A stretch of 64,000 bases of DNA, from assembly GCF_038051985.1 (NCBI RefSeq), contig NZ_CP150291.1:558001-622000 (forward strand), read 5' to 3'. The notes beneath the pieces were generated by a model that made no database searches, was not told the DNA's origin, and saw only the letters and a program-made list of their open reading frames with translations. This DNA is from Solibacillus sp. FSL H8-0523 (GTDB lineage: Bacteria > Bacillota > Bacilli > Bacillales_A > Planococcaceae). Below, one piece after another: positions 31,495-64,000 of this stretch. A program made the position numbers and the translations under genes. Position 1 is the stretch's first letter. Every line of letters begins with the position of its first letter.

Positions 31495-32424
31495 ATGCGC
31501 GTTACACAATCCATGCTATCTAACAATATGCTTCGTAATCTGAATACAAGCTACAACAAGATGAGCAAACTTCAAGATCAAATGAATTCAGGATCACTAA
31601 TTAACCGTCCTTCCGATGACCCGGTAATCGCCGTAAAAGGAATGGGCTACCGCGTAGACTTAGATAAAAACGCGCAATACCAACGTAATATTAATGAGGC
31701 GCATACTTGGGTGGATTCTACAGATGAAGCATTAGACCAAGTTGGTACTTCGTTAATTCGTGTGAAAGAGTTAATTGTACAAGCAGCGAATGATACAAAT
31801 ACACCTGATGAACGTAAAAAAATTGGTGAAGAAATTAGCCAAATTCGTGAGCAATTCCGCGATTTAGCCAATTCGAAAATTGGTGATAATTATATATTCT
31901 CAGGAACTTATACAAATCGCCCATTATTTAGTGATGGGGCGATTAATCCCGAAATCGCTGGTCAAGACGGCTTAACAAAATCTATTGACATGAACGTCTT
32001 TGATGGCATTTCAATGAAAGTAAATACGACAGGCGTAGATTACTTCCAAAAAGTCGATGAATTTATGGGGCAGCTTGAAGGGATTTTGAACAATAAAGAC
32101 ATTACAAGTGAAGAAATCGGTGCGGCATTAGGCGCAGAATTTGAAAATGCTGGAGGCACAGCCAAAATTCCAGCATTAGACGGCTTGCATAGCACGGTCT
32201 TGACAATGCGTGCAGAAATCGGCGCAAAACAAAACCGCCTAGAATTAATGCAAAACCGTTTAGAAATTCAAGAACTGAACGTGACGAAGCAGCTATCTGA
32301 AAATGAAGACACAGACTACGCAAAAGCCATTACAGACATGACAACAGCCGAGTCAATTCACCAAGCGTCTTTATCTGTAGGTGCAAAGATTATTCAGCAA
32401 ACTTTAGTTGACTTTATCCGTTAG
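31495..32424 (+). CDS. flgL: Flagellar hook-associated protein 3 FlgL, copy 1
   Basis: A 309-residue HAP3, which together with FlgK joins hook and filament. The N-terminus (MRVTQSMLSNNMLRNLNTSYNKMSKLQDQMNSG, RPSDDPV) and the C-terminus (DYAKAITDMTTAESIHQASLSVGAKIIQQTLVDFIR) are flagellin-like and characteristic. The RBS is the weak GAAGG 13 bases upstream. A second copy follows at 32643; the two share near-identical terminal domains and differ in the middle. The 3' flank carries one copy of the 81-bp unit that is expanded behind copy 2. Confidence 0.94.
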   Translation: MRVTQSMLSNNMLRNLNTSYNKMSKLQDQMNSGSLINRPSDDPVIAVKGMGYRVDLDKNAQYQRNINEAHTWVDSTDEALDQVGTSLIRVKELIVQAANDTNTPDERKKIGEEISQIREQFRDLANSKIGDNYIFSGTYTNRPLFSDGAINPEIAGQDGLTKSIDMNVFDGISMKVNTTGVDYFQKVDEFMGQLEGILNNKDITSEEIGAALGAEFENAGGTAKIPALDGLHSTVLTMRAEIGAKQNRLELMQNRLEIQELNVTKQLSENEDTDYAKAITDMTTAESIHQASLSVGAKIIQQTLVDFIR

Positions 32425-32505
32425 ATGAAGACAACTAAAGTTCTGCGAAAGCAAAGCGACAGTTGCAAACGGTTTTAAAAAATAAATGACTTCATCCGTT
32501 AATAA
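32412..32505 (+). repeat. Single diverged copy of the flgL 3' repeat unit
   Basis: Starting with the last flgL codons (TTTATCCGTTAGATGAAG), this stretch has the same order of blocks as the 81-bp units behind the second flgL: CAACTAAAGTTCTG, GCGACAGT, CAAACGGTTT. It ends in TTCATCCGTTAATAAC. It shows that gene and 3' flank were duplicated together. Confidence 0.75.
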
Positions 32506-32642
32506 CAATCTAAATTTCGCAATAAAGATTCAATTTCTACATTACATGAAGTGGCAAAACACAACTTACCATTTTATTCAGTCAGCTTAGAAATTACCGT
32601 GTTTCGACCATTTCAAATTCTTTTTTGAAAAGGGGAATGGCA

Positions 32643-33617
32643 ATGCGTGTTACACAATCGATGTTATCAAGCAATATGCTACGAAATTTAAATAATAGTT
32701 ATAATAAAATGTCTAAATATCAAGACCAGTTGAACTCTGGAAAGATTATTAACCGTCCATCTGATGACCCGGTAGTAGCCGTAAAAGGGATGAGCTACCG
32801 CGTGGATTTAGACAGAAACGTACAATATCAACGTAATATGCGTGAAGCTCATACGTGGTTGGATTCGACGGACGAGTCTTTAGATCAAGTCGGGACTTCT
32901 TTAATTCGTGTGAAAGAGCTAATTGTACAAGCAGCGAACGATACGAATACAAAGGAAGAGCGCAATAAAATCAGCGAAGAAATCAAACAAATTCGTGCGC
33001 ATATTCAGGATTTAGGTAATACAAAAATTGGAGAAAATTATGTTTTCTCAGGTACGAAAACAGGGACACCATTATTTGTTAATGAACCAACTCTAAATGT
33101 AACGGTATTAAATGAAGCAGCTTTAGGAACAAAAACAGATAGTAATGCTCCAGGAAATAAAACTGTAGAGATTGATGTATTCGACGGCATCAAAATGCAA
33201 GTCAATACAGCGGGGATGGAATTATTTGGCGCTGTTGATGATTACTTAGCAGAGGTAGAAGGCTTATTTGGTCGTCACAAAGATCCTACTCAAACACCTG
33301 CTACAGGCGAGGAAATCGGTGACTTATTAGGTCTTTCAGGCACAGGTGCAACAACCACTAATCCTAGACTAGATAAAATCACTGAAAAAGTACTCGAAGT
33401 CCGAGCTACAGTGGGAGCGCGTCAAAATCGTCTTGAATTAATGACGAACCGCTTAGAAATCCAAGAAGTTAGCGTGACAAAACAAATGTCACTTAACGAA
33501 GATACAGACTATGCCAAAACCATTACCGAAATGGTAACAGCCGAATCTATCCACCAAGCATCCTTGTCTGTAGGGGCAAAGATTATTCAGCAAACTTTAG
33601 TTGACTTCATCCGTTAG
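32643..33617 (+). CDS. Flagellar hook-associated protein 3 FlgL, copy 2
   Basis: A 324-residue paralogue of the preceding FlgL with the same D0/D1 termini: MRVTQSMLSSNMLRNLNNSYNKMSKYQDQLNSG at the start, SIHQASLSVGAKIIQQTLVDFIR at the end. The central domain is longer and different (about residues 145-240). I start it at the ATG at 32643, preceded by GAAAAGGGG; a GTG/ATG-like frame six codons earlier lies upstream of the RBS. Two flgL genes in tandem are unusual. They could give alternative junction proteins, perhaps matching different filaments (hag and the vWA-flagellin of this window); this is inference. The stop codon is the start of an 81-bp tandem array. Confidence 0.9.
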   Translation: MRVTQSMLSSNMLRNLNNSYNKMSKYQDQLNSGKIINRPSDDPVVAVKGMSYRVDLDRNVQYQRNMREAHTWLDSTDESLDQVGTSLIRVKELIVQAANDTNTKEERNKISEEIKQIRAHIQDLGNTKIGENYVFSGTKTGTPLFVNEPTLNVTVLNEAALGTKTDSNAPGNKTVEIDVFDGIKMQVNTAGMELFGAVDDYLAEVEGLFGRHKDPTQTPATGEEIGDLLGLSGTGATTTNPRLDKITEKVLEVRATVGARQNRLELMTNRLEIQEVSVTKQMSLNEDTDYAKTITEMVTAESIHQASLSVGAKIIQQTLVDFIR

Positions 33618-35456: not shown

Positions 35457-35573
35457 GGTTAATGGTAGTTTTAAATACATATATTAACGGGAAATTTTAT
35501 GGTTAAAAATAACTTTTAAGAAAAATGCCGATAAGGTAAGAAAGCTTAAAAATAAATTGAACATAAAGGTATG

Positions 35574-36129
35574 ATGCAAATGGTCGGTTTTTTAAAAAAA
35601 TTATTTTCTTCGAAACCCATTCCCCCTGAGCAGCAATACGACGAGCGCGGCTTCAATCTATACGGGGAATCATAAAAACGGCACCAAATATGATGATTAC
35701 GGTTATGATGTCCGCGGATTTGGTGAAAATGGCAAAATGCGCAATCGTAACTTTTATGATGCAAATGGCTTTGACGCAAAGGGCATCCATTTGACCGGGA
35801 AAAAGTATATCGGCGGCTACGATTGCTTCGGCTATGATGCAATCGGCTATAATCGTGACGGCTGGAACCGAGAGGGCTACTACAAGGACGGTTATAACAA
35901 AGCAGGCTATGATGTAGACGGCTTCAATTTTAGTGGCCTTGACCAAGAAGGCTATGACCAAGACGGTTTCGATAAAAAGGGCTGGGACCGAGAAGGCTTT
36001 AATAAAGAAGACTTCGATAAAAACGGCTACAACCGAGACGGGAAAACGCACGATGGCTACAACGAAAAAGGTTATAATGCGGAAGGCTACGACCGAGAAG
36101 GTTACAACAGAAAAGGCTATAAATGTTGA
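35574..36129 (+). pseudogene. Frameshifted gene of G-[YFW]-[DN]-x-x pentapeptide repeats
   Basis: The frame opens with MQMVGFLKKLFSSKPIPPEQQYDERGFNLYG (an AAAGG RBS is just upstream) and stops at 35675. The same protein continues in the next frame as NGTKYDDYGYDVRGFGENGK. Removing one G from the GGGG run at 35664-35667 joins them. The continuation contains 21 successive five-residue units (GYDCF, GYDAI, GYNRD, GWNRE ...) and ends GYKC at 36129. There is no signal peptide. This is not the A(D/N)Lxx pentapeptide family, and I do not know a function. At the 3' end it runs directly into a flagellin C-terminal fragment in another frame. Confidence 0.7.
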
Positions 36130-36544
36130 CACAACGGAAGCACCGATGCCTGACAATATTACCTTCCATATTGGTGCAAACAGTGGCCAAAATATTCAAG
36201 TAGAGTTACCTAAAATTTCAACTAAAAATCTAGGCTTAACAGGCATCAGCATTGCTACTCAAGAAACGGCGGATAAGGCAATCGAAAAATTCGATAAAGC
36301 AATCGCCCTGATTTCAGACGATCGCTCACGCCTGGGTGCAGTACAAAACCGCCTCGAGCACACAATTAACAACCTAGGCGCAACATCAGAAAACCTAACA
36401 GCCGCAGAATCACGCATTCGCGATACAGATATGGCCGCTGAAATGATGAACTTCACAAAGCAAAACATCTTAATGCAAGCAGCGCAATCAATGCTTGCAC
36501 AGGCAAATCAGCAGCCACAAGGTGTATTACAGCTACTAGGCTAA
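36122..36544 (+). pseudogene. Flagellin C-terminal fragment (hag remnant)
   Basis: About 140 codons encode [19 protein letters not shown] followed by a complete flagellin C-terminal D1/D0, ending [12 protein letters not shown] and almost identical in protein to the end of hag. Codon choice differs clearly from hag (for example CTCGAG versus TTAGAA at the same residues), so it is not a recent copy. There is no N-terminal half, start codon or RBS. The 5' side is fused out of frame to the pentapeptide-repeat relic. It is either a deletion relic of a second flagellin that had repeats in its variable region, or a fusion by recombination. Confidence 0.8.
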
Positions 36545-36684: not shown

Positions 36685-37962
36685 ATGAGAATTCAACATA
36701 ACATTTCGGCTTTAAACACACACCGTAACCTTGGTTTCAACAACGCGCAAGCGTCTAAAAACCTAGAAAAATTATCTTCAGGTTACAAAATCAACCGTGC
36801 TGGCGATGACGCTGCAGGTTTAGCAATCTCTGAAAAAATGCGTGGACAAATCCGTGGTTTAGACATGGCTACGAAAAACGCTAACGACTCAATCTCTCTT
36901 ATCCAAACAGCTGAGGGTGCATTAAACGAGTCTCACTCAATCTTACAACGTATGCGTGAGTTAGCAGTACAATCTGCAAACGACACAAACGTTGCAGAAG
37001 ACCGTAACGCGTTAAACAAAGAAATCACACAATTAAAAGAAGAATTAACTCGTATCTCTACAGACACTGAGTTCAATACTCAAAAATTATTAAACGGTGA
37101 TTTCCAAGATCGCGTATTCCACATCGGTGCAAACGAGAAACAAAACATCGAGTTATCAATCAGCAACGTATCTGCTAAAGCTCTTGATATTCAAGGGGAT
37201 AAAGAAGGTACAGTTAAAAATACTGATGTTTATGATACTCTTAAAGTAAGTGTAAAAGCAGAGTCAGTTGGAGCGGCAGTTGTTGAATTAGAAGCTAAAT
37301 GGCAAGCATCTGCAGGTACAAAAGTAGCTGGTTATTATGTTGCTAACGCTACAGTAGCGGTATTAGCATCTGCTAAACCTTTAACTGTTGGTGCAACACC
37401 TGGTACAATGACTATTACTACTGTTACTACACGTATTGCTGCAGGTACAGTTGCGGGTCTTTACTCAACAGCTGGCGATGTCGATAAAGAAGGCGTACTA
37501 TCAGAAATGACTGTTGATGGTGCTGTAGCAACTTTCAAAGAAGCAGTTAAAGATGCAGATGGTAAAACTACACAAGCTGCGGGTTATTACAAAGCTGATG
37601 GTACTTCAGCGTTTGCTGCTGATGAAGCATTTGAAAACGGTGCTAAAGTTGATGTTGAAGGAATTAGCCTATTAACTCAAAAAGGTGCTGACTCAGCAAT
37701 CGTTGATATCGATGCAGCAATCAAAAAAGTATCTGATACACGTTCTAACTTAGGTGCAGTTCAAAACCGTTTAGAACACACAATTAACAACTTAGGTGCA
37801 ACTTCTGAAAACTTAACAGCTGCTGAATCACGTATCCGTGATACAGATATGGCTGCTGAAATGATGTCATTCACGAAGAACAACATCTTAATGCAAGCTG
37901 CACAATCAATGTTAGCGCAAGCTAACCAACAACCACAAGGCGTATTACAATTATTAGGTTAA
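36685..37962 (+). CDS. hag: Flagellin
   Basis: A 425-residue filament protein. N-terminal D0/D1 (1-~170): [60 protein letters not shown]-terminal D1/D0 (~330-425), ending [20 protein letters not shown]. The centre (about 175-330) is a variable Ala/Thr/Val-rich domain, longer than Bacillus subtilis Hag (304 residues), with many Ser/Thr that could be glycosylation sites. The gene uses a narrow set of codons, as expected for a highly expressed gene. Expression is set by a sigma-D promoter and a CsrA-bound leader. The Maf/pseudaminic acid genes follow directly. Confidence 0.97.
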
Positions 37963-48413: not shown

Positions 48414-48423
48414 GGTGAATTAC

Positions 48424-49551
48424 ATGGTAGAGTTTATTTCATATGGTCGTCAATCAATAGACGGCGAAGACATCCAAGCAGTAGTGGACACATTACGTTC
48501 GCCTTATTTAACACAAGGACCAAAAGTTGCCGAGTTTGAACAAGCTGTAGCAGATTATGTAGGGGTAAAATACGCCGTTTCATTTTGTAATGGAACTGCT
48601 GCCTTACATGGTGCTTGCTCTGCTGCTGGGATTGGTGAAGGAGACGAGGTCATTACTTCACCAATTACATTCGCAGCAAGTGCAAACTGTGTGCGATATG
48701 TAGGCGGTACAGTAGTATTTGCTGATATTGATGCAACTACGTATAATATTGATCCGACAGAAATTCGTAAAAACATTACAGCAAAAACAAAAGCAATCAT
48801 TCCTGTAGATTTCACAGGCCAGCCTGTTGATATAGATGAAATTATGACGATTGCAAAAGAGCATAATTTAGTTGTTATTGAAGACGGTGCACACTCTTTA
48901 GGTGCTACATACAAAGGCCGTAAAGTTGGGACAACGGCTGATATGACAATGTTTAGCTTTCATCCAGTAAAGCCTGTGACAACAGCAGAAGGTGGCATTA
49001 TTGTAACAGATAATGAGGAATATTATAAAAAGATGCTACAGTTCCGCAGTCATGGCATTGAGCAGGTACCATACTCACCTGAAAAGGGTGGCTGGTATTA
49101 TGAAATGACCGACCTTGGCTACAATTATCGAATGACTGATCTACAAGCTGCTTTAGGTGTTTCACAATTGAAGAAATTAGATACATTTATTGCAAAGCGT
49201 CAGGAACTTGCTGAACACTATAACCAAGCTCTAGTGAATGTTGAAGGAATTAAAATTCCACAGCAATTAGCTAATACTAAGTCTGGTTGGCATTTATATA
49301 TGATTCAGCTTGAACATGCGAATCGAAAAGAAGTATTTAATGCAATGCGTGCAGCTAATATTGGAGTACATGTGCATTACATTCCGGTTTATTGGCATCC
49401 GTATTATCGTGATTTAGGCTACGAGCGCGGATTATGTCCTGTAGCAGAGGCATGGTATGAAAAAGCGTTGACATTGCCGTTACATCCAGGGATAACACAA
49501 GAAAATATGAACTTCATTATTGAAAAATTAGAAACTACAATTCATGATTGA
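48424..49551 (+). CDS. pseC: UDP-4-keto-6-deoxy-HexNAc aminotransferase PseC
   Basis: A 375-residue PLP enzyme of the DegT/DnrJ/EryC1 family, making the 4-amino sugar, step 2 of pseudaminic acid synthesis. SYGRQSIDGEDIQAVVDTLRSPYLTQGP and VSFCNGTAALHGACSAAGIG are PseC-like. The PLP Lys is in MFSFHPVKPVTTAEGG, and ...EDGAHSLGATYKG holds the PLP-contacting Asp. The ATG at 48424 has AAGGTG ahead; the in-frame GTG at 48415 is embedded in the RBS. pseC is separated from pseB by eight genes, an unusual split. Its composition is close to pseB and unlike the genes between. Confidence 0.93.
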   Translation: MVEFISYGRQSIDGEDIQAVVDTLRSPYLTQGPKVAEFEQAVADYVGVKYAVSFCNGTAALHGACSAAGIGEGDEVITSPITFAASANCVRYVGGTVVFADIDATTYNIDPTEIRKNITAKTKAIIPVDFTGQPVDIDEIMTIAKEHNLVVIEDGAHSLGATYKGRKVGTTADMTMFSFHPVKPVTTAEGGIIVTDNEEYYKKMLQFRSHGIEQVPYSPEKGGWYYEMTDLGYNYRMTDLQAALGVSQLKKLDTFIAKRQELAEHYNQALVNVEGIKIPQQLANTKSGWHLYMIQLEHANRKEVFNAMRAANIGVHVHYIPVYWHPYYRDLGYERGLCPVAEAWYEKALTLPLHPGITQENMNFIIEKLETTIHD

Positions 49552-49967: not shown

Positions 49968-50010
49968 GTACCCATGTCTATTGAGCAAAATAGACATGGG
50001 TATTTTTTAT
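49968..50010. terminator. Terminator of the glycosylation operon
   Basis: TACCCATGTCTATT and AATAGACATGGGTA form a perfect 14-bp stem followed by T6. It also lies at the 3' end of the convergent vWA-flagellin gene. Confidence 0.9.
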
Positions 50011-51521
50011 CCTAATAACTGCAAAATCCCTTGGCCCATCTGATTGATCTGCGCCATCATCGATTGGGAGGCTTGTAGTAAGACTTGATCTTTTTGGAGC
50101 TTGATTGTTTCCTTTGCGATATCCGTATCGCGTAGTTGGGATTCAGCCTTTGTTAAGTTTTCGTTAGCGCTTAGCACGTTGTTATACGCGTGCCCTAAGC
50201 GATTTGAAATAGCCCCGTATTCTGCACGGCGGTCACTAATTTTGGCAATGACGGCATCCACACGAGCTAACGCTTCCATTGCGGATTCGTATGGTGTGAG
50301 TGCCATGTCCTTTAAAAACAGGCGGAAATCGCGGTGGTCGTATAAGGGAATTTCAATATTTTGTCCTGAGTTGGCACCTGAGTGGATCACTAAAGGCTTC
50401 ATCGATTCTTCTGTAAATGATCCACCTGATTCATTGGTGATTTTTTCGGCTAATGTCAGTAGCTGCTCACCAAACATGCCGTTGATGTCTAGGTATAAAC
50501 CATCTGTCTCCGTATGAAGAGGGGAGAGCTGCGTATTCGATTCGCTATTTGTAATAACGGTTAATTTAGCTGAGCCATCTAGTTCTGCAATTACATCATC
50601 AATTGTATATTTCGAATAGATTTGGCTGGCTAGTATTTCATTATCATCAAAATTTCCATTACTATTTGAGTCTTCGTATGGTAATCTCTCATGAACGGTT
50701 GCATCTGTCACAAGGATATAGTTTTTCGTAGCGTCAGGACGGAATTTATCAATAGAATGTGCTTTTAAAATTCCTTCTAATCCGGATTCATCCCAGTCAG
50801 CCCCATTAGTTAGTTGAATACCATTGACACTATTTTTAAATTGGTCTACATCTAGTGGGAATCCTACAATTTCAGAAAGTACTGAATCACCGCCTAGGTT
50901 AACAGGAGGTGTCATTTTAGATTCATCGCCATATGTAACAAGGCCTAGATTAACATCGATGCCATGCGCTTTTAGTGCGGAAACGAAGTTACCAATGTTA
51001 TTTTTTACATTTTGAATCAGCTGTCTCATACTCCCCGTATTATCAATCACAAACACAATATCCGCCTTCCCAGAGCCACCTGTAATGCCAGGTATAATTT
51101 CACTTGGTGGAATGAACGGTTTGATGGTATTGAATTCCGTATTATGCACGATATCGTCGATGCCCTCGATAATTTCGTTGATCTCTTTTTGAATCAGTTC
51201 GCGGTCTGGGTCGGTATTCGTATCGTTTGCCCCTTGAATAATGAGCTCACGTAACCGATTGAGCATCGGGCTTTGCATCGTGCCGAGTGCAGCGTCCATG
51301 ACGTTGATGACGGAAATGCCGTCTTGAATGTTTTCGGAGGCTTGCTCTAAGCCGCGGATTTGCGCGCGCATTTTTTCGCTGATGGCTAATCCAGCTGCGT
51401 CATCGCCGGCTTTGTTAATTTGGTAGCCTGATGAGAGCTTATTTAACGTTTTATTTAGCTCGGTATTTGTCTAGTTATAGCGATTTTGAACGAATAAGCC
51501 TTGATTTTGTTGGATACGCAT
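50007..51521 (-). pseudogene. Flagellin with inserted von Willebrand A domain; nonsense codon 17
   Basis: From the ATG at 51521 the frame reads MRIQQNQGLFVQNRYN, then TAG at 51473-51471, then [41 protein letters not shown] without any frameshift: a normal flagellin N-terminus broken by one stop. After D1 a vWA domain (about 50400-51070) follows. It has a MIDAS-like DNTGS (full-length residues 160-164), NGADWDESGLEGI, YILVTDA, and an EF-hand-type loop DSNSNGNFDDNE (284-295). Then come [12 protein letters not shown] and an intact flagellin C-terminus ending GQGILQLLG. The total is 504 codons plus stop. The longest uninterrupted frame starts at 51371 and lacks D0. If the stop is real and not suppressed, no filament subunit is made. 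Confidence 0.85.
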
Positions 51522-51816: not shown

Positions 51817-52899
51817 ATGGCTAAAATTTATTTAGATGGAATTGCCTATAATCAGTTTGGGCATGATATTTTTTTTACACAACTAAATTTGAAAACCTTG
51901 CTTGCCTTATTTGAAGTAGATAGCAATGTACAAAGGGAATTAGATCCTCAAAGAAGGTTTGATATTCGTTCGTTTATTTTGGACAACCTAGAGCACGAAC
52001 GGCCGTTTCATTTTACTTCATTTGTATTTAGTGCACGCGGGGAAATCCAGCAAGATGCGCAGGGCTATTACTTAACGTCCGGGAGTAAATTATACATAAA
52101 CGATGGGCAACATCGTTCGAAAAGTATGGAGTCGGCATTGATGATGCTCAAGAGTTCTCTGGATGCGGCAGAATACGTAAAAAATACAGAAAAAGTAATC
52201 AAGCTAAAAGAACAAATTAAATACCTAGAGGATTTTCCGATTACGATGCAAATCTTCTTGAATTTAACTGTCAAGCAGGAGCGCCAGTTGTTTAGTGATC
52301 TGAATACGGAGCGAAAAGATGTTCACTCCGGTCAGCTTTTACAATATGATCACCGAGACGCCTATAGCATCCTGACACGCCAATTGGCCAAGCGCCTTCA
52401 ACATCACATGGAAATCGAGCTTAACGCAGCGCGTGTGTTGAGCAGCTCCTCTGCCATCACGACACTGGTTGTCATGAAGCGCTGTATTTCGGCATTATTC
52501 GATGGCCTCTATACGGCAAAGGTCAACAAAATCACATTTTCTTATCCTCAGCAAGAAGTCGAACAAATTGCAGAAGCATTCTTTTTGAAATGGTTACAAA
52601 TCTTCCCGAAGCAAGCACATAAACGCTCGCAGTATGTAACAGGTTTAACTGGAATCCAAGTCGCACTCGCCCTTACCGTTCATCACCTCACGAAAACACA
52701 AAAATTATCCTATCAAGAAGCCATCGAGCAACTAACGATTTTAAAAGATTTTAGTTGGACGCATACAGATCCGATTTTTCAATTTTTATACGTCAAAGAA
52801 AAAAATAGCATTGTCGGTCATTCCAATACTTATGCGATTCGCCGTATAAAAGAAAGCTTTATAAAAATGATTCAGCAGGAAATGGCGGTGAAATCATGA
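51817..52899 (+). CDS. DndB-like DGQHR-domain protein 1
   Basis: A 360-residue cytosolic protein. SKLYINDGQHRSKSMESAL (about residues 89-107) contains the DGQHR motif that names the DndB-related family. IFLNLTVKQERQLFSDLNTERKDVHSGQLLQYDHRD is the second conserved block. DndB represses and tunes the phosphorothioate DNA-modification operon; orphan relatives without dndCDE are of unknown role. No dnd gene is in this window. The next gene, a distant paralogue, overlaps by 4 bases (ATGA), so the two are likely to work together. Start ATG 51817; the RBS is weak. Confidence 0.75.
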   Translation: MAKIYLDGIAYNQFGHDIFFTQLNLKTLLALFEVDSNVQRELDPQRRFDIRSFILDNLEHERPFHFTSFVFSARGEIQQDAQGYYLTSGSKLYINDGQHRSKSMESALMMLKSSLDAAEYVKNTEKVIKLKEQIKYLEDFPITMQIFLNLTVKQERQLFSDLNTERKDVHSGQLLQYDHRDAYSILTRQLAKRLQHHMEIELNAARVLSSSSAITTLVVMKRCISALFDGLYTAKVNKITFSYPQQEVEQIAEAFFLKWLQIFPKQAHKRSQYVTGLTGIQVALALTVHHLTKTQKLSYQEAIEQLTILKDFSWTHTDPIFQFLYVKEKNSIVGHSNTYAIRRIKESFIKMIQQEMAVKS

Positions 52900-53912
52900 C
52901 ACAATATGTAACGCTTTTTACGGTACAAGAAATTGCAGAAAAGGTGCAGCAGCAAACCATGGTTTTACGAAAAACCGAGGCGCGCCATACACGAAAAATC
53001 CGGCAATATGTGATGGAACAATTTATGACAGGGGATGTCTACATTCCGCCGATTGTTGCTTCTGAAAACGACGGAAATCTCTACATTATCGATGGCAGCA
53101 CACGGTTGCAGGGCATTCTTGACATTTTACCGCTTGTGAATCGTTTAATGCTAAGTGACGATTTAGAGGAGCAAACAAAGGCCATTCAGCTAAGCGCGAG
53201 TATTGGCGATGTGCCACTAGCTTTTCAAGTGTTTAAAAATTTCACGAAAAAGCAGCAGGAGCAATTGTATTTAGACGCCAATACTAAAGGCAAAAAAGTA
53301 GCGCTCTCGAAGCGAATCGCCTTTGATTCACGTAATACGATTAATACGGTAACCAATGAATTGTTGCAGCAGCATGAAGCTCTACGCTTTGCAGGGATTG
53401 AGCAGGAGAAGGTAAGCATCAATCGACCAGCGAATAAGAACTTTTTATCGCTAAGTCAACTGAGGGCAATCGTGGCACTGTTTGTTGTTGGAAAGGAAAC
53501 AGAGTCGGGCTTACACACGCAGCATGTAGATAATGAGTTAATCGAAAAACGATTACCCCTGATCAATGCCTGGTTGGATGAGCTCTTTATCTTGGAGGGA
53601 CCTGAAAAGATTGGGGATTACCAGATTTCGATCTTGGCGAGCTTTTTAGTTGTGCGGGCATTGGCCTATTATGCGCTACGCGGCGAGGAGTTTGTGACAA
53701 CGAATAATAAGGAAACGTTTATCCGCAATCGCATGAAAGCGCTTAATCATATTAGTTGGGAGTCCTGTCAGCCGCTTTGGCAGCAGTTCAATGGGAATTA
53801 CCGGGCTGGGGGACAGCTCTATTTTTTACAAAACAGCAAAAAAACATTGAACAGTATTATTGATTGGCTATGTCTTCAAGGGGGTGATGTGGTATTGGAA
53901 AACTCTTATTAA
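52896..53912 (+). CDS. DndB-like protein 2 (DGSTR variant)
   Basis: A 338-residue protein with the same layout as its upstream neighbour. The region YIIDGSTRLQGILDILPL (about 64-81) replaces DGQHR by DGSTR. AFQVFKNFTKKQQEQLYLDANTKGKKVALSKRIAFDSRN corresponds to the second block. The N-terminal RKTEARHTRKIRQYVMEQFMTGDVYIPPIV resembles the ParB/DndB-type N-terminal pattern. Translation is coupled to gene 1 by a 4-base overlap. Divergence between the copies suggests a heteromeric pair and not a recent duplicate; the function is unknown. Confidence 0.7.
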   Translation: MTQYVTLFTVQEIAEKVQQQTMVLRKTEARHTRKIRQYVMEQFMTGDVYIPPIVASENDGNLYIIDGSTRLQGILDILPLVNRLMLSDDLEEQTKAIQLSASIGDVPLAFQVFKNFTKKQQEQLYLDANTKGKKVALSKRIAFDSRNTINTVTNELLQQHEALRFAGIEQEKVSINRPANKNFLSLSQLRAIVALFVVGKETESGLHTQHVDNELIEKRLPLINAWLDELFILEGPEKIGDYQISILASFLVVRALAYYALRGEEFVTTNNKETFIRNRMKALNHISWESCQPLWQQFNGNYRAGGQLYFLQNSKKTLNSIIDWLCLQGGDVVLENSY

Positions 53913-55344: not shown

Positions 55345-58300
55345 CTAATTTGTTTGCTTTTTAAATACAATGGTCGGACTTGCTGTTGTAAATGAAGCGA
55401 GCCATTCATCATTGCTAGTGCTGCGTGTAGAATTTAATGTAATCGTTGTTTTACCAGCCTTTAATTCCTCTAAATTTAATTCGAAGGTAGCTGTGTAATG
55501 CAGTACAACGCCTGTAGCGATAGACAGCTCTTGATCGCTTACACTTACATTGTTGTCAGTAGCAGTAGTGCCAGACTTCACTAAAAGAGGTGCCGGTTGA
55601 TTGACCGCCTCTGTAAAGGTGATTGTTAAGCCTGAAACAAGGACACTTCCCTCCATATTGAATGAAGTATCAATTTGGTAGTCCATTTCTAAATCATTCA
55701 ATGGTGTAATGGCGATTGTATAATCATCCTTCACTTGAATTTGAACTTGCTGACGTAAGCCATTTTTCGTAGTAAGTGTCACAATTTCAGTGCCGATTGC
55801 TAATGCATATACATTAGCACCCTCAATTCGAATGATTGAAGAAGTGTCTGTGCTATAAGCAAACGAGGCGTAAGAATTGATTGCTAAATTAGCAAATAAA
55901 TCCTGTTGAACAATGTTAAATGCTGCGTTAACCGCTGTTAATGTGCCAGCATACAGAACCGTTTTGCCGTCTTTCGTAGCACGTACGATTGCTGTTTCGT
56001 TTGTATCTGTATTTGTAAATCCGAATACAGTATTGCCATCAACAAATACTTGGTCACCTTTTAATACCTCAAGGCTTGTCGCATCTGCTAATGTGACAGT
56101 AGGTACAGCAACCTCGGGCTTGATTTCGTATTTATCGTCTGAGCTATTGTACTCGACTTCAATTTGAACGTAGCTGCCGTCCACCATGTAAATCCCAGTA
56201 CCTACAGCTATTGCGTGCCATTTACCATTTGCATAGGATACGACATCTTTTTGTGCCTTATGCTCGACAGTTGTGTAAGCTGTCTGTGCATCTTCCGCTA
56301 ATTCCGTCGCTGTTAATTTATAGTTTGTATCAATCGATACATTGTAGATTTTTCTATCTGTTGTAAACGAACCACTTGTGCTTGTATTCGTAGCAGTTAG
56401 TGGCGTTGGATAAATGACCGTATAGTCCACACCATCTACTGTATGTGTCACTACACGTAAATTACCTTTTACATCAGTTACAGCTGTGCTATAGACAAGT
56501 GCTTCTTGAATTTGAGATGCCGTGAAGTCCACCTTAAATTCATTTGTAGTCGTATCTACTACAGCCTGTGAGTAGACTGTTTTAAATTTATTTGTTTCGT
56601 TTTTGATAACAAATACTGTCGGTGTTTCATCGATATATGTGATACGTAGCCCTGTGCCCTCTGAAACGGCTGTTGCTGTACCTGATTGCGTAATAGCAAT
56701 TGGTGCAAAGCCAAATTCATTGTAGGCCACAAATGATGTAAATGGTTCAAATGTGAAGCTACCACCAGCTGTTACAGTTAATACATACAGTGCCTGCTTG
56801 CCTTCGTTCCCTTTCACGATGACATGTGCTGTACCAGGTTCACCTGGGTACACGGTTACAATTCCATTGCTTACTTGAATGACACCTTGCTTCGATTCTA
56901 AGGCTGTCCCATTTGCATGGGTTACGCCCGTCGCATAGAAGTTAAAGTGCGAGAAGTTGTAAGAGCCACTTACCGGTGTTGATGCAACGACAAGGTTATT
57001 GGCATCACCCGTTACAGTAACGGAAAGTTGAATAGATTGTGTGCCGTCTGCGTCTGTTACGGTTACATATTCGTGACCTGTAGCGTTTGGTGTTAATTCG
57101 ACAATCTTTTTGCCATTAATCGTGTCAACTGTTGCTGTTACGATTGTATTTGTTGAAACGATCGTAGTAGCGTTCGGTAAAATATCGTGAATATCCGCTT
57201 GCTTTTGTGTGATTTTTTGAGCGCTCATGACACCGCCTTTTGTAATGACAATGCGGTAAATATCATTTCCGATTGTAACATCTCTAAATGACTGTTCACC
57301 ATTTGTATCAAGGGTAAAGTCAACGGCACTTGCAAGGAAGTTTGCATCTACTGACATAAACGCTGATACATCCTCAATTGGAGCGCCTACTAATTGAACA
57401 GTAATTGGTGCAGCGTTAACCGCTAGTTTCCCGTTCACTTTTTGAGCAACGACATTATAAAGCTTTCCGTCTACTGTTGCGATGAGGCTGCCTTCTGTTA
57501 ATGCATAAATCGTATCTCCTACAAAGCGAACAATGTTATTATTTGTAGTTTTTGCTGTAATAGATGTTGCACCTGAAATTTCATGGCGAGCGAAAATTGG
57601 ACTTGCAATGACTAATTTTGAGTCTTGTTCTGTTACGGCAAAGTAAACAGTTGTTTCGCCATTATTAATCGTTAGTTTTGCCTCACCTGTATTTTTAGCA
57701 AGAATCACTAATGTTTTCGTAGCCCCTGTACCGATTGTTTTCGCTGAGATTACGCCAGAGCCAATGATAGGCGAAATATTGTGTGCAGTAATTTCAGATA
57801 TTCCTAAATCCGCAGCAGTGAATGTAAGCTGAACAGCTGGCTGGCTAACCTCTAGCTTGTATTGACTATCTACAAGCGTTACAGAAATTGTTTTAATTTC
57901 TGTGCCGTCTTGAATTTGAACAATACCTTCTTTTTGTGCATAGACAGTATTTCCTACAATCTTAATAACATCCGAAGTGCTATCAACTAATGTTGGTGCG
58001 TTTGCAAATGTGGCTTTAACGACATTAGGTTTAATATCGAATTTCAAATCAGATTGACGATCGATTGATACGTTCATTAATACTTTTACGGTATTTAATG
58101 TACCCTCTAGCACCGTTTTCCCTGATTTAAGTGCGTAGATTTTGTTGTCACGCACTTGCGCGAATTCATTTGACGTCCAATCTGTAATAGCTTGCTCATC
58201 AACTGTTAAGATTGGATTTGGAGTAACTGTTAAATCCTTCGCTGCAATTGTTGGTAACAGCTCTGTGCCGTTATGAGTAACAATTACGGCGACATTTGTA

Positions 58301-61300
58301 CCATCTGAAACTCTGATTTCAGCTGTACCATTGCTTTGACCGATTAGATACAGTTTCTGTGCATCTGCACTTAGCTGTTTTGTTACAGTAGAGCCTGTAA
58401 TGTCAACGCCTTGGAATGTTGCAAGACCTAAATCCGTAGCTAAAATTGTTGCTAGGTTATGCTCACTTTCTTGAATACTATAGAGTTCGGATTGCGCGTT
58501 TTTGCTAACTGTCACAGTCGTAGCTTTTTTGCCATCCGCGCTCGTTTTGAATAATGCATTGCCAGCAGCAGTAGGGTAGTAAGTGCTCGAATCTTGACGG
58601 AATGTCAATCCAGCTGTAGCTGTCAGTTCTGTTGCATTTTCCAGCTCAATGCTTACTGGTATTGCTGTTGCTTTAAGGTTGCCATCCGTGCTTTCTACAA
58701 TGACATTGACAAGCCCAACAACATTGCCACCTTGTTTTAGGACGATTGACGTTGTGCCTGCACCCTTAGATGTAATATTTAATCCATCCGTAGTAGTAGT
58801 AACAGCGATTAAGTTGCTATTATAAGCCTCTGCTGTAATGTTATTAGCTGCATTGGATAAGCCCATATCTACAAATTTTAGGGCATTTACACTTGCTTGC
58901 TCGGTTACAAGGAATGCACCGTCTTTGTTGTTCGTTACATTAAATGTTAAAGTCGTTGTTTTTCCATTAACCGTATCTTGTACCTTTAATGTTGCCTTCT
59001 CAAATACGGTACCTGCATAAATAATAAGATTATCTCCATCGATTTCAGCGAACGCAACATCAGCTGGTGTGTTTTCGGCAGTGACTGTTGTCGCTGTTAA
59101 GCCATAATCAGCTAATTTAAATGCTTTCATTTGGCGTTCATCAACATTCAGCTTGTAAAGGCCATCTTCAAATGTTGTGCTAGCTATGATGCGGTAATTC
59201 GTTGTAAACACCTTTTCTTCGGCTGCTACGTCAGCAATGGCATAAAGTGTTGTACCATCTAGCTTTAAGTTTGGAGACGTAAATGATGCCGCCTCTTTAA
59301 GCTCATATTTCACAAATTCAGCAGTTGCAGTTAGCTCACCATTTGTACGTGTAACCGTTACGTTAATTAAACGATTATCAGCTAGTTTTAATACAGCGTT
59401 ACCTTCAGTAAGTAGGTATAGCTTGTTAGTTGTAGAGTCAACTCGTACGTTTGTGCCTTTATATAGTTCCGCGCCGACCATGTTTGTATCTAAATCTAAT
59501 TCCGCTGCCTTCAGTGCTGATGGTACACCATTTGTGACCGTTGTATGGTAAAGCATGTTAACGCCACCACTTGTAATCATAATGTCTGAAACGCCTGTGT
59601 TTTCAGTAGCATAGATGACTAATTCGTTTGATGTTTCGCTAATTGCTGTTTCGACACCGTTTAATACCGTGCCTACAGTAGCGATTGTGCCAGCAATATT
59701 TGCAAGGTCAAATGTAACAAATTTCATTGCTGCTGATTTTGTCAGGCTATAGTGCCCATTTTGCTGTGTGACTGCAATTGAATAAACGTCAGCGCCGATA
59801 TTGACTAATGCTGTGCCAGTTTCTTTTGCATAAAGCGTCATGCCAATTTCCGTTAAGATTACCCCGTTTGTAATGGTATCGACAGCAGTAGTCATTTCCG
59901 TGCTTACAAACGTTGGTGCTGTAGCCTGTAACAGATTTGTTTGTGAAGCGTTGACTGTTGTGTTGACGAACGCATTCGCAAATTTGAACGCTGTATTTCC
60001 AGCTTCTAGTGCGTAAATTGTCAGGCTATTATCCTTCCAAACAGCACGTGCTTGGTCGTTTTCAAGAACTTCATTAATTCCAGTAGGGAAGCCTAATGAA
60101 CTTACATCAAGTGCAGTAGCCGCCTCTTTTGCCTCTGAAATTGAGCCATCCTCTGCGATTTTAATATTAATCACTGCATGATATTTTGTTGTATCCGAAC
60201 CAATTGTTCCTTCTACTAATAACGAAACGGTTTGAGCTGTTGATGCCCCGTTGCTATATAGGACTACGTTATCTGTACCACGGACAAATTGGATAGCATT
60301 TGCATTGCCTTTTAGGACTGTCGCAGAAGTTAATGCCGTTAAGCCAAGCTGCTGAGCAGATACGACAGAGCTTGTAATCGCTGTTTTTGTCATAGACACT
60401 TGCTTGTTCGCAGCTTCTACTACATGTACCTCATAGACGTTTCCATCAATTTGCACTTTCGTTGAACCAATACCTGTTGCATAAATGATACCTGTTGCTG
60501 TGTCTAGGCGAACAACATTTGGATCCGTTGCATTACCTGGTAAAGCTGCGATAGTTTTGCCGCTTTCATCGAGTGTAAGTGGTGTAACAGCGACTTGATA
60601 TTCACCTGTCGTTGCACTCTTTGTTACGTGAATGGCTTGTAGGTCTGTACCAACTGTTGCATACGTATGACCCTCTGCAAATGGATATAATTTATTATTT
60701 ACAGCATCAAAGCGAACAAGCGCTGGATTTTGGAATGCTGGTGCTTGTGCAAATGCCGTATAGTCCTGTTCAGCGATTGTAGATGTTAGCTGAATCGCGC
60801 TAGCTGCATCCAATTTACGAGCTACTTGTACAAGTGTTCGTAGGTTTGCGTCAGCTGTAGATTTGACAATAATTTCACCTGTGCCCGTTGTATTGCCTGT
60901 TAATTTGCTATAGGCAACTAGCTTTTCAACGATTGTTCCATTTTCCTCTACTTCCACAATGGCTGCATACGTTGAGCTGCTATTGCTGTTTGATTCAATT
61001 GTTAAGCCGGATGTAGACGAGAAGCCTAAATCACTAGCTGTGTAAATTGCTAAACCTAATGATACAGGTTCTGACATTGTGTAATGACCATCTACTACTG
61101 AAATCGTAATTTGCTTGATTTCGTTGCCAACTAATAGCTCGACTTTTCCTGCTGCAAGACCATATACTTTTGTTCCTTCAATACGTACTAATGCAGCATC
61201 TGAAGGGTCGATTAAAATTGGGACTGCTGCTAATGTTTTAGCAACAACTTCTTTTTCTACTTTGAATGAATTATCTGCTTCTTTCGTAACAGTAAAGTTC

Positions 61301-64000
61301 ACGATGGTAGATTTTGAATTAGCACCGCTAATCGTAAGGGATGTTTTTCCCTCTGCGACACCGTATACGCTAATATTATTGCCGTACTCCGTTTTCGTTA
61401 GGATAGCTGCGTTATGACCTGTTGCAGTAAGGTTGCCAGTTAAGTCAAGCTCTGTACCAGTCACTGTAAGGCTGTTTGTCATCACAGTATGATCCATTTC
61501 ATAGTGCGTATCACTATTGGCTGAAATCGTAAATTGTACGATTCGGCCGTCTGATAAGAGCACCTTAGCGGTCGAATTATTTTTCACTGCATAAACTATA
61601 TCGTTATAAATGCGAACGGCGTCGCCCTCGATTATTGTACCTGTAATATCAGCGCCTAAATCTGCTAAGTTATAAGATACTACATTACCTGTAATTGTAC
61701 GCTTGCTCTTTGGATTCGCCGCATCATCTAATGCAGTTGTTACGTTTATAAGCAAAGTTTGGTTGTTTGAATCCGTTGCTGTATAAGTTGTTTTACCAGC
61801 CTTTAATGCATAGAGTTCAACTGTTTTACTTGAAACATTCGCACGTAGCATATCTGTTAAGTAGCTAGAAGTGGTAACGCCATTTAGGCCATATGCTGAA
61901 ACATCAATTGAATCAGATTTTTCAACCTCTGCTACTAAGCCTGTATCATCCCGCTTAATGTACATGTAAGAGGTAGCTGTGCTTTCGTTACCAATGACTT
62001 GAATGCGTGTTTCCTCAGAGCTTGATGAAGAAATATCGAGTTTATCGCCATTGATGGTTGCCGTTGTTGTGCTACCAGTTGGAACGATGACCTCATTTAA
62101 TGAGGTTAAGCCTAATTCATCCATAGAAATGGATTTTTTAAACGTAATGACACCTGTGTCTTCGAAAGCGTATTCTTTAGTCGCTTCGTTGTATGAAACC
62201 TTAATCGTATAGAAGCCTGATAAATTCGTATCTGTTTTGTGCTGAATAGGCACTTCGATTGTTGCGCTATTATTTGTTAGGCCGTTACCAGTTGCATATA
62301 AAATGCCATCTTTTACATGAGCAGCGGTCGAGCTAAATGTTGCATTTGAAAGTTCGAAGTCGTTTAGTTTTGCTGATAAATCATGTTTTACTGGTGCTGT
62401 CGTAATTTCGTAGTTGCCAGCAGTATTGGATACGGTCGTATTGACAACCGTAGTATTTGAGCCGTCTGTTACTTTAAATGTACGTTCGCCGTCCTGGAAT
62501 CCGTAAATATAAAGTTTATCGGCAATTGTAATCGCACGCGCAGTAGTTGTTAACTCGTTTGAGACAGAAGTAAGAGCATTTAAGCCTAAATCTGTCGCTG
62601 TAATTTCAGCGCGGTCGATTTCGACTGAATATTCATTGCTTGCATTTTTAGTTACGTGAATAATCGTTTGCTGTGGTACGGCAGCACTTGATTTTAAAAT
62701 AATTGTTGATGTACCTACTTCAGACATGCTTACAAGCAATTGAGAGTTACTTGAAATTTTATAAAGCTGTGTCGTTTGATTGGCAGTTGTTGCGCTATCA
62801 AAATCGCTCATGTGTAACTCAGCTGCTGTAATCAGCTTGTTTGTAATCGCTACAGGCTTTTCAATTAAATATTGGTTGTTTTCAAGCTTTACTTCAATTG
62901 AATATTGCTTGCCGTTAGAAAGCGTTACATATGTTGTACCTGCTGATACGGCATATAATGTAAGGCCAGATTTACGTAAGCTTGAACCCTGTAAATCCTG
63001 TATTGTAGCACCTGTATTATCGTCCGTTGTATTAGTTGAAGTAATAACATTTGTTAAATCTAAATCGACAACCTTGAATGTTGGTACGGCAATCTTTCCG
63101 CTTGTGTTCGTTGCTTGGAAATTTAAGATTGCTGATTTATCCTGAATATCCTTTACAATAATTGAGCCGCTCGCTGCAGCGTTCGCAAATAATTGTAGCG
63201 CTGAGCCACTCTCATAGACATGGACGTTTGTTGTATTTGGATAAATATCGATTGACTTAATAGCTTCTAGCTTTAAAGTATTTGCAATTGAAACGGCTGT
63301 TGATTTTGCAATTTCAGGCACGTTAACGGTAGCTGTTATATCCGTAAATGACGTATTTACGGTTAAGGCTGTTGAATTTGTACCATCTGATACTTTAATG
63401 TTTTCTCCACCAGCAATACGAGGATATAAGGCAACACTGTCTGTAAGTGTTAAGCCGCCTACTTTAGAAGCAGTTAATGACGTAACCCCATTAGGTAGGC
63501 CTAAATCAGTATAAGATACAATTTGTGGTGTAATTGCTAATGCGTCCGTGATTGTATAAGCGCCATTTGCATTAGATACATAGACTCCTGTTAAATTGCC
63601 TAGTAAATCAGTGTCTGTCTTATTTGTTTGAATAATCGCTAATGCGTTTTGTAATTTTGTAGCAACAATTTTTACTTCGCCATTGACTTCTACATAGCGG
63701 AAATCATCATTACCTTCGATTAATACTCCGTTTGGTGCTGTTGTAGCTAATACTTCTTGTTTAGTAATATTCTTATTGGCATCGACTGTGACTGAAACTA
63801 ATGTTGCATTTCCTGCCGCATCTACTACACGTACCGTCGTTGAGCCTTCTTTTAATGCAGTAAAGACAAGTTTACCGTTTGCCACTGTATTTGAAATGAC
63901 ACCTGCTGTTGAGTACTCAAATTGTTCTAATGGTGCAGATGCTAAGAGTAGGTCTTTTTCTGACATTAATTCAGACGTATTGTACTCAGGAGTTAAATCC
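55345..64000 (-). CDS. Giant surface protein of Ig-like repeats (5' end outside window)
   Basis: The frame is open from 55345 to the window edge. It continues past the ATG at 63966 (the upstream codons DLTPEYNTSEL are also open), so at least 2880 residues are present and the true start lies beyond 64000. The protein is a string of ~80-95-residue units with two alternating flavours: 'DLGL...LYIYGxxxGxxxxxVxDGxxxxxINVTV' and 'VRxxGNxVYAxxxGxxxVxVGxxIxxITVxxxxGxYxL'. Both suggest beta-sandwich Ig/BIG-like folds, rich in Thr, Ala and Val. The C-terminus (ASFTTASPTIVFKKQTN) has no sorting signal, so any SLH or signal sequence should be N-terminal, outside this window. Adhesin or S-layer-associated fibre is inference. 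Confidence 0.85.
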   Translation of the reverse strand, partial: DLTPEYNTSELMSEKDLLLASAPLEQFEYSTAGVISNTVANGKLVFTALKEGSTTVRVVDAAGNATLVSVTVDANKNITKQEVLATTAPNGVLIEGNDDFRYVEVNGEVKIVATKLQNALAIIQTNKTDTDLLGNLTGVYVSNANGAYTITDALAITPQIVSYTDLGLPNGVTSLTASKVGGLTLTDSVALYPRIAGGENIKVSDGTNSTALTVNTSFTDITATVNVPEIAKSTAVSIANTLKLEAIKSIDIYPNTTNVHVYESGSALQLFANAAASGSIIVKDIQDKSAILNFQATNTSGKIAVPTFKVVDLDLTNVITSTNTTDDNTGATIQDLQGSSLRKSGLTLYAVSAGTTYVTLSNGKQYSIEVKLENNQYLIEKPVAITNKLITAAELHMSDFDSATTANQTTQLYKISSNSQLLVSMSEVGTSTIILKSSAAVPQQTIIHVTKNASNEYSVEIDRAEITATDLGLNALTSVSNELTTTARAITIADKLYIYGFQDGERTFKVTDGSNTTVVNTTVSNTAGNYEITTAPVKHDLSAKLNDFELSNATFSSTAAHVKDGILYATGNGLTNNSATIEVPIQHKTDTNLSGFYTIKVSYNEATKEYAFEDTGVITFKKSISMDELGLTSLNEVIVPTGSTTTATINGDKLDISSSSSEETRIQVIGNESTATSYMYIKRDDTGLVAEVEKSDSIDVSAYGLNGVTTSSYLTDMLRANVSSKTVELYALKAGKTTYTATDSNNQTLLINVTTALDDAANPKSKRTITGNVVSYNLADLGADITGTIIEGDAVRIYNDIVYAVKNNSTAKVLLSDGRIVQFTISANSDTHYEMDHTVMTNSLTVTGTELDLTGNLTATGHNAAILTKTEYGNNISVYGVAEGKTSLTISGANSKSTIVNFTVTKEADNSFKVEKEVVAKTLAAVPILIDPSDAALVRIEGTKVYGLAAGKVELLVGNEIKQITISVVDGHYTMSEPVSLGLAIYTASDLGFSSTSGLTIESNSNSSSTYAAIVEVEENGTIVEKLVAYSKLTGNTTGTGEIIVKSTADANLRTLVQVARKLDAASAIQLTSTIAEQDYTAFAQAPAFQNPALVRFDAVNNKLYPFAEGHTYATVGTDLQAIHVTKSATTGEYQVAVTPLTLDESGKTIAALPGNATDPNVVRLDTATGIIYATGIGSTKVQIDGNVYEVHVVEAANKQVSMTKTAITSSVVSAQQLGLTALTSATVLKGNANAIQFVRGTDNVVLYSNGASTAQTVSLLVEGTIGSDTTKYHAVINIKIAEDGSISEAKEAATALDVSSLGFPTGINEVLENDQARAVWKDNSLTIYALEAGNTAFKFANAFVNTTVNASQTNLLQATAPTFVSTEMTTAVDTITNGVILTEIGMTLYAKETGTALVNIGADVYSIAVTQQNGHYSLTKSAAMKFVTFDLANIAGTIATVGTVLNGVETAISETSNELVIYATENTGVSDIMITSGGVNMLYHTTVTNGVPSALKAAELDLDTNMVGAELYKGTNVRVDSTTNKLYLLTEGNAVLKLADNRLINVTVTRTNGELTATAEFVKYELKEAASFTSPNLKLDGTTLYAIADVAAEEKVFTTNYRIIASTTFEDGLYKLNVDERQMKAFKLADYGLTATTVTAENTPADVAFAEIDGDNLIIYAGTVFEKATLKVQDTVNGKTTTLTFNVTNNKDGAFLVTEQASVNALKFVDMGLSNAANNITAEAYNSNLIAVTTTTDGLNITSKGAGTTSIVLKQGGNVVGLVNVIVESTDGNLKATAIPVSIELENATELTATAGLTFRQDSSTYYPTAAGNALFKTSADGKKATTVTVSKNAQSELYSIQESEHNLATILATDLGLATFQGVDITGSTVTKQLSADAQKLYLIGQSNGTAEIRVSDGTNVAVIVTHNGTELLPTIAAKDLTVTPNPILTVDEQAITDWTSNEFAQVRDNKIYALKSGKTVLEGTLNTVKVLMNVSIDRQSDLKFDIKPNVVKATFANAPTLVDSTSDVIKIVGNTVYAQKEGIVQIQDGTEIKTISVTLVDSQYKLEVSQPAVQLTFTAADLGISEITAHNISPIIGSGVISAKTIGTGATKTLVILAKNTGEAKLTINNGETTVYFAVTEQDSKLVIASPIFARHEISGATSITAKTTNNNIVRFVGDTIYALTEGSLIATVDGKLYNVVAQKVNGKLAVNAAPITVQLVGAPIEDVSAFMSVDANFLASAVDFTLDTNGEQSFRDVTIGNDIYRIVITKGGVMSAQKITQKQADIHDILPNATTIVSTNTIVTATVDTINGKKIVELTPNATGHEYVTVTDADGTQSIQLSVTVTGDANNLVVASTPVSGSYNFSHFNFYATGVTHANGTALESKQGVIQVSNGIVTVYPGEPGTAHVIVKGNEGKQALYVLTVTAGGSFTFEPFTSFVAYNEFGFAPIAITQSGTATAVSEGTGLRITYIDETPTVFVIKNETNKFKTVYSQAVVDTTTNEFKVDFTASQIQEALVYSTAVTDVKGNLRVVTHTVDGVDYTVIYPTPLTATNTSTSGSFTTDRKIYNVSIDTNYKLTATELAEDAQTAYTTVEHKAQKDVVSYANGKWHAIAVGTGIYMVDGSYVQIEVEYNSSDDKYEIKPEVAVPTVTLADATSLEVLKGDQVFVDGNTVFGFTNTDTNETAIVRATKDGKTVLYAGTLTAVNAAFNIVQQDLFANLAINSYASFAYSTDTSSIIRIEGANVYALAIGTEIVTLTTKNGLRQQVQIQVKDDYTIAITPLNDLEMDYQIDTSFNMEGSVLVSGLTITFTEAVNQPAPLLVKSGTTATDNNVSVSDQELSIATGVVLHYTATFELNLEELKAGKTTITLNSTRSTSNDEWLASFTTASPTIVFKKQTN

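Follow-up and report, generated by a model that had tools for sequence, protein, structure and literature searches.

Flagella stick, yet to our knowledge mostly no dedicated binding domain is known on the filament. Among the domains that occur in flagellin variable regions, the von Willebrand factor type A domain (vWFA, or VWA) was the eighth most frequent in the survey of Eckhard et al. (2017), with a frequency of 21 among the 26,587 flagellins gathered (PMC5595980, Table 1). In these proteins, as in the gene described here, vWFA lies between the flagellin N and C ends; in the text of that paper they are represented by one table line (vWFA occurs once, Willebrand or VWA never), and the text contains no analysis of the metal ion-dependent adhesion site (MIDAS), of VWA types or of function (PMC5595980). 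The gene in question is located on the minus strand (51521-50007) of a 64,000-nucleotide stretch of the Solibacillus sp. FSL H8-0523 genome (contig NZ_CP150291.1, positions 558,001 to 622,000), referred to below as the window. An earlier inspection of the letters alone (the sequence-only reading) had given its position correctly as 50007..51521 and stated that no characterised vWA-flagellin was known; this stands as regards function, on which no paper was found in the open-licence literature judged by titles and abstracts, whereas the architecture had already been counted in 21 sequences (PMC5595980). VWA flagellins are a patchy, scarcely studied group, and the window gene is an interrupted member of it. 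We consider it somewhat probable that the VWA flagellin is an accessory subunit which makes the filament a metal-dependent adhesive surface, the window copy being interrupted.

Flagellinolysin (NF033876) likewise has a flagellin variable region occupied by a foreign, metal-dependent domain, is patchily distributed and has spread by lateral transfer. It is, however, a gluzincin protease with an HExxH motif, while the window protein has a VWA domain and no HExxH in its translation, and scores 45.5 bits against the NCBIfam model NF033876, the cut-off of which is 205. The integrin beta I-like domain (PF00362) resembles the window domain in its metal site, where D-x-T-x-S, D-x-x-E and T-D-A-x-x-H align with beta-3 (D217/E220, T-D251-A-K-T-H); in contrast to it, the VWA flagellin is bacterial, is situated on a filament subunit, has no partner alpha chain and, in the nearest clade of the window protein, possesses an extra EF-hand-type loop. 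CmoA of Paenibacillus sp. NAIST15-1 is an extracellular protein with one vWFA domain, the gene of which lies downstream of a flagellar cluster near yvyC, fliD and fliS and the level of which drops in a hag mutant; unlike the VWA flagellin it is secreted by a signal sequence, contains eight IPT/TIG domains and is not a flagellin (PMC5072692). The plausibility of MIDAS adhesins in bacteria is touched upon by the description of such a protein in Bdellovibrio (Tyson et al., 2024).

At this locus of the window lies an accessory flagellin gene in interrupted form, as was revealed by the open reading frame (ORF) list, translation, Pfam and genome search. The minus-strand frame, to which all gene coordinates below refer, encodes in order a flagellin N-terminal helical region (51120..51521, comprising the part around the stop and residues 1-84 of the 454-amino-acid frame; Pfam, genome search and model), a short linker, the VWA domain (50421..51068, about residues 102-317; Pfam, model and fold matches in PDB) and a flagellin C-terminal helical region (50010..50267, residues 369-454; Pfam and model). 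Due to an in-frame TAG at codon 17 (51471..51473), which is evident from the translation, the frame does not run uninterrupted through the N-terminal helix. The sequence-only reading had not stated this stop, although its mention of strains with an intact allele hints at it. Downstream of it lies an ORF of 454 amino acids, starting with an internal ATG at 51371, in which Pfam recognized Flagellin_N (PF00669; 60 bits, profile positions 50-132) and Flagellin_C (PF00700; 70 bits), both above cut-off, as well as VWA (PF00092; 37.6 bits, cut-off 23.8) and VWA_4 (29.7 bits, cut-off 27); flagellin ends around a vWA domain in one chain, as proposed earlier, are thus present. In the whole-genome search the Flagellin_N match covered positions 10-132 and spanned the stop (115.2 bits, one TAG reported). 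The genome, a single contig of 4.14 Mb, contains five Flagellin_N matches (hag, a distant second flagellin, two FlgL-like genes in the window and the VWA flagellin), of which only the last bears a stop. The same 454-amino-acid frame appears in the protein database as cluster P0001 with two members on two contigs, the longest being 20,097 bases and hence belonging to another assembly. Considering the single-contig assembly and the listing of the frame from a second contig, a reading error is disfavoured as the source of the TAG, albeit not disproved. Since there is only one stop and the remaining frame is open, the interruption is perhaps recent.

The window copy might still be used via restart at the internal ATG (51371) or TAG readthrough, as the frame after the stop is open and the occurrence of cluster P0001 on two contigs places the shortened frame beyond one assembly. 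However, the N-terminal helix of flagellin is required for export and polymerisation, and would be lost together with the first 50 residues; moreover, the internal ATG falls within SEKMRAQIRG, a motif common to many flagellins in the alignments, and the promoter score of the gene (see below) is at background level. Continued use is, in our opinion, very unlikely, and the window copy is presumably inactive.

The MIDAS-like D-N-T-G-S noticed in the sequence-only reading was found by alignments and motif scan at residues 110-114 (51030..51044). The second metal-site loop, N-G-A-D-W-D-E-S-G-L-E (residues 189-199, 50775..50807), contributes D192 and E195, aligned with integrin beta-3 D217/E220, and the third motif, T-D-A-T-V-H (residues 222-227, 50691..50708), is aligned with T-D-A-K-T-H (D251); the alignment to beta-3 was derived from a 15-row profile, a single VWA sequence being too weak. 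The MIDAS residue set (D-x-S/T-x-S, an acidic residue or T in loop 2, D in loop 3) is thereby represented by D110, T112, S114, E195 and D223, and in alignments of VWA flagellins the residues of the metal site rank with the best conserved ones of the domain. The structure model (predicted local distance difference test, pLDDT, 89.6) displayed for the VWA domain a Rossmann-like alpha/beta fold, the absence of which the sequence-only reading had named as counter-evidence when it proposed such a prediction. The integrin beta I-like domain was the best fold match in PDB, with ~15% identity in the structural alignments. Against PF00362 (cut-off 24.8) the 454-amino-acid frame scored 23.3 bits and the excised domain 25.1 bits, no single stretch passing the cut-off, while 11 of the 15 A3 members gave a match at E <= 0.001. 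When the 15-row profile was compared with PDB sequences, collagen VI chains ranked first and integrin beta-3 third. Judging from the model, the window VWA domain is an integrin beta I-like fold, which, as its motifs suggest, probably binds metal.

An EF-hand-type loop had also been claimed. The stretch DSNSNGNFDDNE (residues 234-245, 50637..50672), recognized by alignment and pattern scan, does satisfy the 12-residue pattern D-x-N-x-N-G-x-[hydrophobic]-x-x-x-E, which in its strict form arose by chance in 0.265% of 20,000 shuffles of the window VWA region. Pfam, however, recognized no EF-hand in the 454-amino-acid ORF at E <= 1, and the model contains no helix ahead of the loop. Since the stretch before it is coil and helix begins only with its last residues (from residue 243 onward), it should be regarded as a calcium-loop-like element and not as an EF-hand. 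The loop is an insertion following the third metal motif; a comparable one is present in nine proteins of the nearest clade (P0001, P0002, P0004-P0009, P0012), and P0003 has a degenerate version. None of the 91 other VWA-flagellin rows matched the strict pattern, the loose one adding P0103. The possibility that the loop is a general part of the VWA domain was rejected, as the insertion is missing from nearly all other rows.

The search for chains combining Flagellin_N, VWA and Flagellin_C, also suggested in the sequence-only reading, returned intact homologues in other genomes, so that their absence, its second named counter-evidence, was not observed. A precomputed VWA-type label is attached to 100 of the best 120 protein matches, among which the window protein itself is counted; these 100 all possess Flagellin_C and, except P0012, Flagellin_N. 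Ureibacillus xyleni, Sporosarcina, Bacillus marasmi, Planomicrobium, Halobacillus, Clostridium kluyveri, C. beijerinckii and C. arbusti are among the named sources of relatives. P0002, P0003 and P0005 also begin within the N-terminal region, where either a contig end or a stop may be the cause. Scanning of named genome contigs gave 60 loci, 15 of which (L026-L040) combine a near-full query match with the MIDAS motif in the flagellin frame; L051, also a full-length match, is a further candidate outside the 15, and the other loci are mostly VWA-only matches. In the host family, at least 13 VWA flagellin genes occur in at least 11 of 261 genomes, and even draws yielded matches at E <= 1e-80 in at least 3 of 398 genomes of the phylum and at least 4 of 398 of the class (own genome counted in both), all these counts being lower bounds, with no more than six or no more than three candidates scored per genome. 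Each of the ten other family genomes with a VWA flagellin has at least one further Flagellin_C gene, which argues for the VWA flagellin being an accessory one.

Ten of the 13 family genes are stop-free. The remaining three are the window gene, that of G019 (L091), with a stop in the N-terminal part, and that of G179 (L093), with a stop inside VWA; outside the family, the gene of G770 (L129) has a frame change in its N-terminal part. The VWA flagellin gene thus appears from the sequences to be repeatedly lost or switched off. Clustering of the breaks in the N-terminal part was considered and rejected: three of the four (the window gene and those of G019 and G770) do lie there and that of G179 in VWA, but as evidence four cases gathered in different searches are worth nothing. 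Stops were also met in a few flagellins without VWA in the family genome search.

According to their signatures, the VWA domains fall into an integrin-beta-like group A, with E-S-G-L-E and T-D-A-x-V-H, and groups B and C. The 120 rows comprise 72 of A, 19 of B, 24 of C and 5 unassigned (72, 19, 23 and 5 with slightly other expressions); the regular expressions are our own, and some rows are possibly mislabelled. A tree built only from the flagellin ends of 157 rows (a quick tree with Shimodaira-Hasegawa-like approximate likelihood ratio test support only, in which P0138 was counted as non-VWA despite its Pfam VWA label) displayed the groups clustered yet mixed, group A requiring 17 changes, at least 10 of them forced by starred branches. 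The C. kluyveri protein P0021 (type A) and P0100 (type C) are 93.5% identical in the N end and 96.8% in the C end, but 27.5% in the VWA region, with sharp borders of divergence after RPPISET and before MPVLNLQVGANSG. The pair P0018 and P0084 is less clean, having more changes in the C end (91.3% in the N end, 24.5% in VWA, 84.2% in the C end). Altogether, scaffold ends average at least 80% identity in 84 pairs, and in 8 of these, with overlapping membership and from about four scaffold groups, VWA identity is below 45%; in the 63 same-type pairs its mean is 71.7% and its minimum 48.4%. Both partners of the exchanged pairs retain the MIDAS motif. We read this as a likely exchange of whole VWA cassettes on one flagellin scaffold, rapid divergence being less likely because of the sharp borders; the reading concerns the clostridial members and not the window gene. 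Only tentatively do we propose, further, that VWA flagellins serve as exchangeable binding cassettes, where recombination in the flagellin ends would swap MIDAS domains and change the ligand of the filament, broken copies being switched-off or reserve ones.

The N- and C-terminal helices of intact members would assemble together with ordinary flagellin, and the integrin-beta-I-like VWA domain would take the outer position on the filament, the surface of which would then bear many copies of MIDAS capable of binding an acidic ligand group via a divalent metal; a surface polymer, matrix or cell are candidate ligands. That intact members are exported and assembled, bind metal and adhere is what we infer, and the adhesive role is our best guess from sequence and model. 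Several points weigh against it. Apart from the interruption of the window copy, no full-length VWA flagellin was present in 15 same-genus genomes with all candidates scored, and the further broken copies (G019, G179, G770) suggest that the benefit may be slight or only occasional. The literature yielded no data on the binding, expression or assembly of any VWA flagellin, the VWA region as a lone query matched only one PDB sequence (E 0.63), and no flagellar neighbours were recognized by eye, without a Pfam scan, at five of the eight loci inspected. The SigD-like promoter score upstream of the window gene was 8 of 12 positions, a value reached by 285 of 300 shuffles of that upstream, so no SigD-type promoter stands above background there. 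Against the same shuffles, which served as background for all scored genes, hag scored 10 (reached by 9 of 300) and, among seven stop-free relatives, the VWA flagellins of Halobacillus faecis and Bacillus marasmi scored 11 (1 of 300) and 10, respectively, the remaining five being at background with 8 or 9.

Moreover, the partner bound by a MIDAS site can also belong to the filament itself. The VWA domains of neighbouring subunits might bind each other, possibly via the metal of MIDAS and an acidic residue; the resulting ridges or sheath would make the filament stiffer, as an aid to swimming or swarming where the surroundings are viscous or dry. In other flagellins, dimers and tetramers of outer domains are described that give the filament a sheath or a screw-like surface and change its motility (Kreutzberger et al., 2022; PMC8931119), and Paenibacillus requires CmoA to move across hard agar (PMC5072692), a parallel that extends no further than the domain and the position of the gene; yet near-identical scaffolds bearing very different VWA types (27.5% identity) are more easily explained by changing outside ligands, and we regard such self-association as unlikely. 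Still less probable seems to us a mainly antigenic role, in which the VWA region would alter the filament as seen by antibodies, phages or predators, MIDAS being kept for fold stability: the patchy spread (at least 11 of 261 genomes) and the sharp exchange of VWA types at scaffold borders resemble surface-antigen switching, but the conservation of the metal-site residues exceeds the need of mere filler. If the adhesive role holds true, a flagellin with an integrin-beta-like, metal-dependent site would provide an adhesive filament with many copies of that site, and also a scaffold on which binding domains can be displayed. Because VWA types are exchanged while the scaffold stays constant, the idea can be put to the test: the filament is the same and the ligand differs. 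For the strain itself this is of little consequence, its copy being interrupted.

As the sequence-only reading had noted, the VWA flagellin is on the strand opposite to hag (36685-37962, plus strand) and beside glycosylation-type genes: the DegT-family aminotransferase gene (48415-49551) closes the nearby run of flagellar and sugar genes. The feature pointed out in that reading is real and was well described, and the interpretation given there is partly supported. The plus-strand genes upstream are two FlgL-like ones, FliW, hag and an MptE-like gene, which we take to be of the Maf type, followed by nucleotide-sugar, cytidylyltransferase and NeuB genes. The aminotransferase gene and a small gene without Pfam match flank the VWA flagellin on one side, and two DndB-family genes, a ComK-like gene and FlaG on the other. 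The VWA flagellin of U. xyleni has a similar setting: FlaG, FliD and FliS lie to one side of it and a DegT aminotransferase to the other, in each case with one gene intervening. No conserved partner gene was recognized among the neighbours, which were Pfam-scanned in the window and at those three of the eight loci that looked flagellar.

The neighbouring FlgL-like genes (31495-33617, plus strand) encode 309 and 330 amino acids with flagellin N and C domains. Just upstream of hag, the region 35515-36544 (plus strand) contains a frame rich in D-x-x-G-Y/F repeats and then a flagellin C-terminal part in another frame; with no N-terminal part seen, it looks like a second broken flagellin. The DndB-family pair (51817-53912, plus strand; PF14072, 87 and 46 bits) is situated amid flagellar genes. 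Beside FlaG, a frame of 2,884 amino acids, still open at the window end (55345-63999, minus strand), encodes a repetitive-looking protein.
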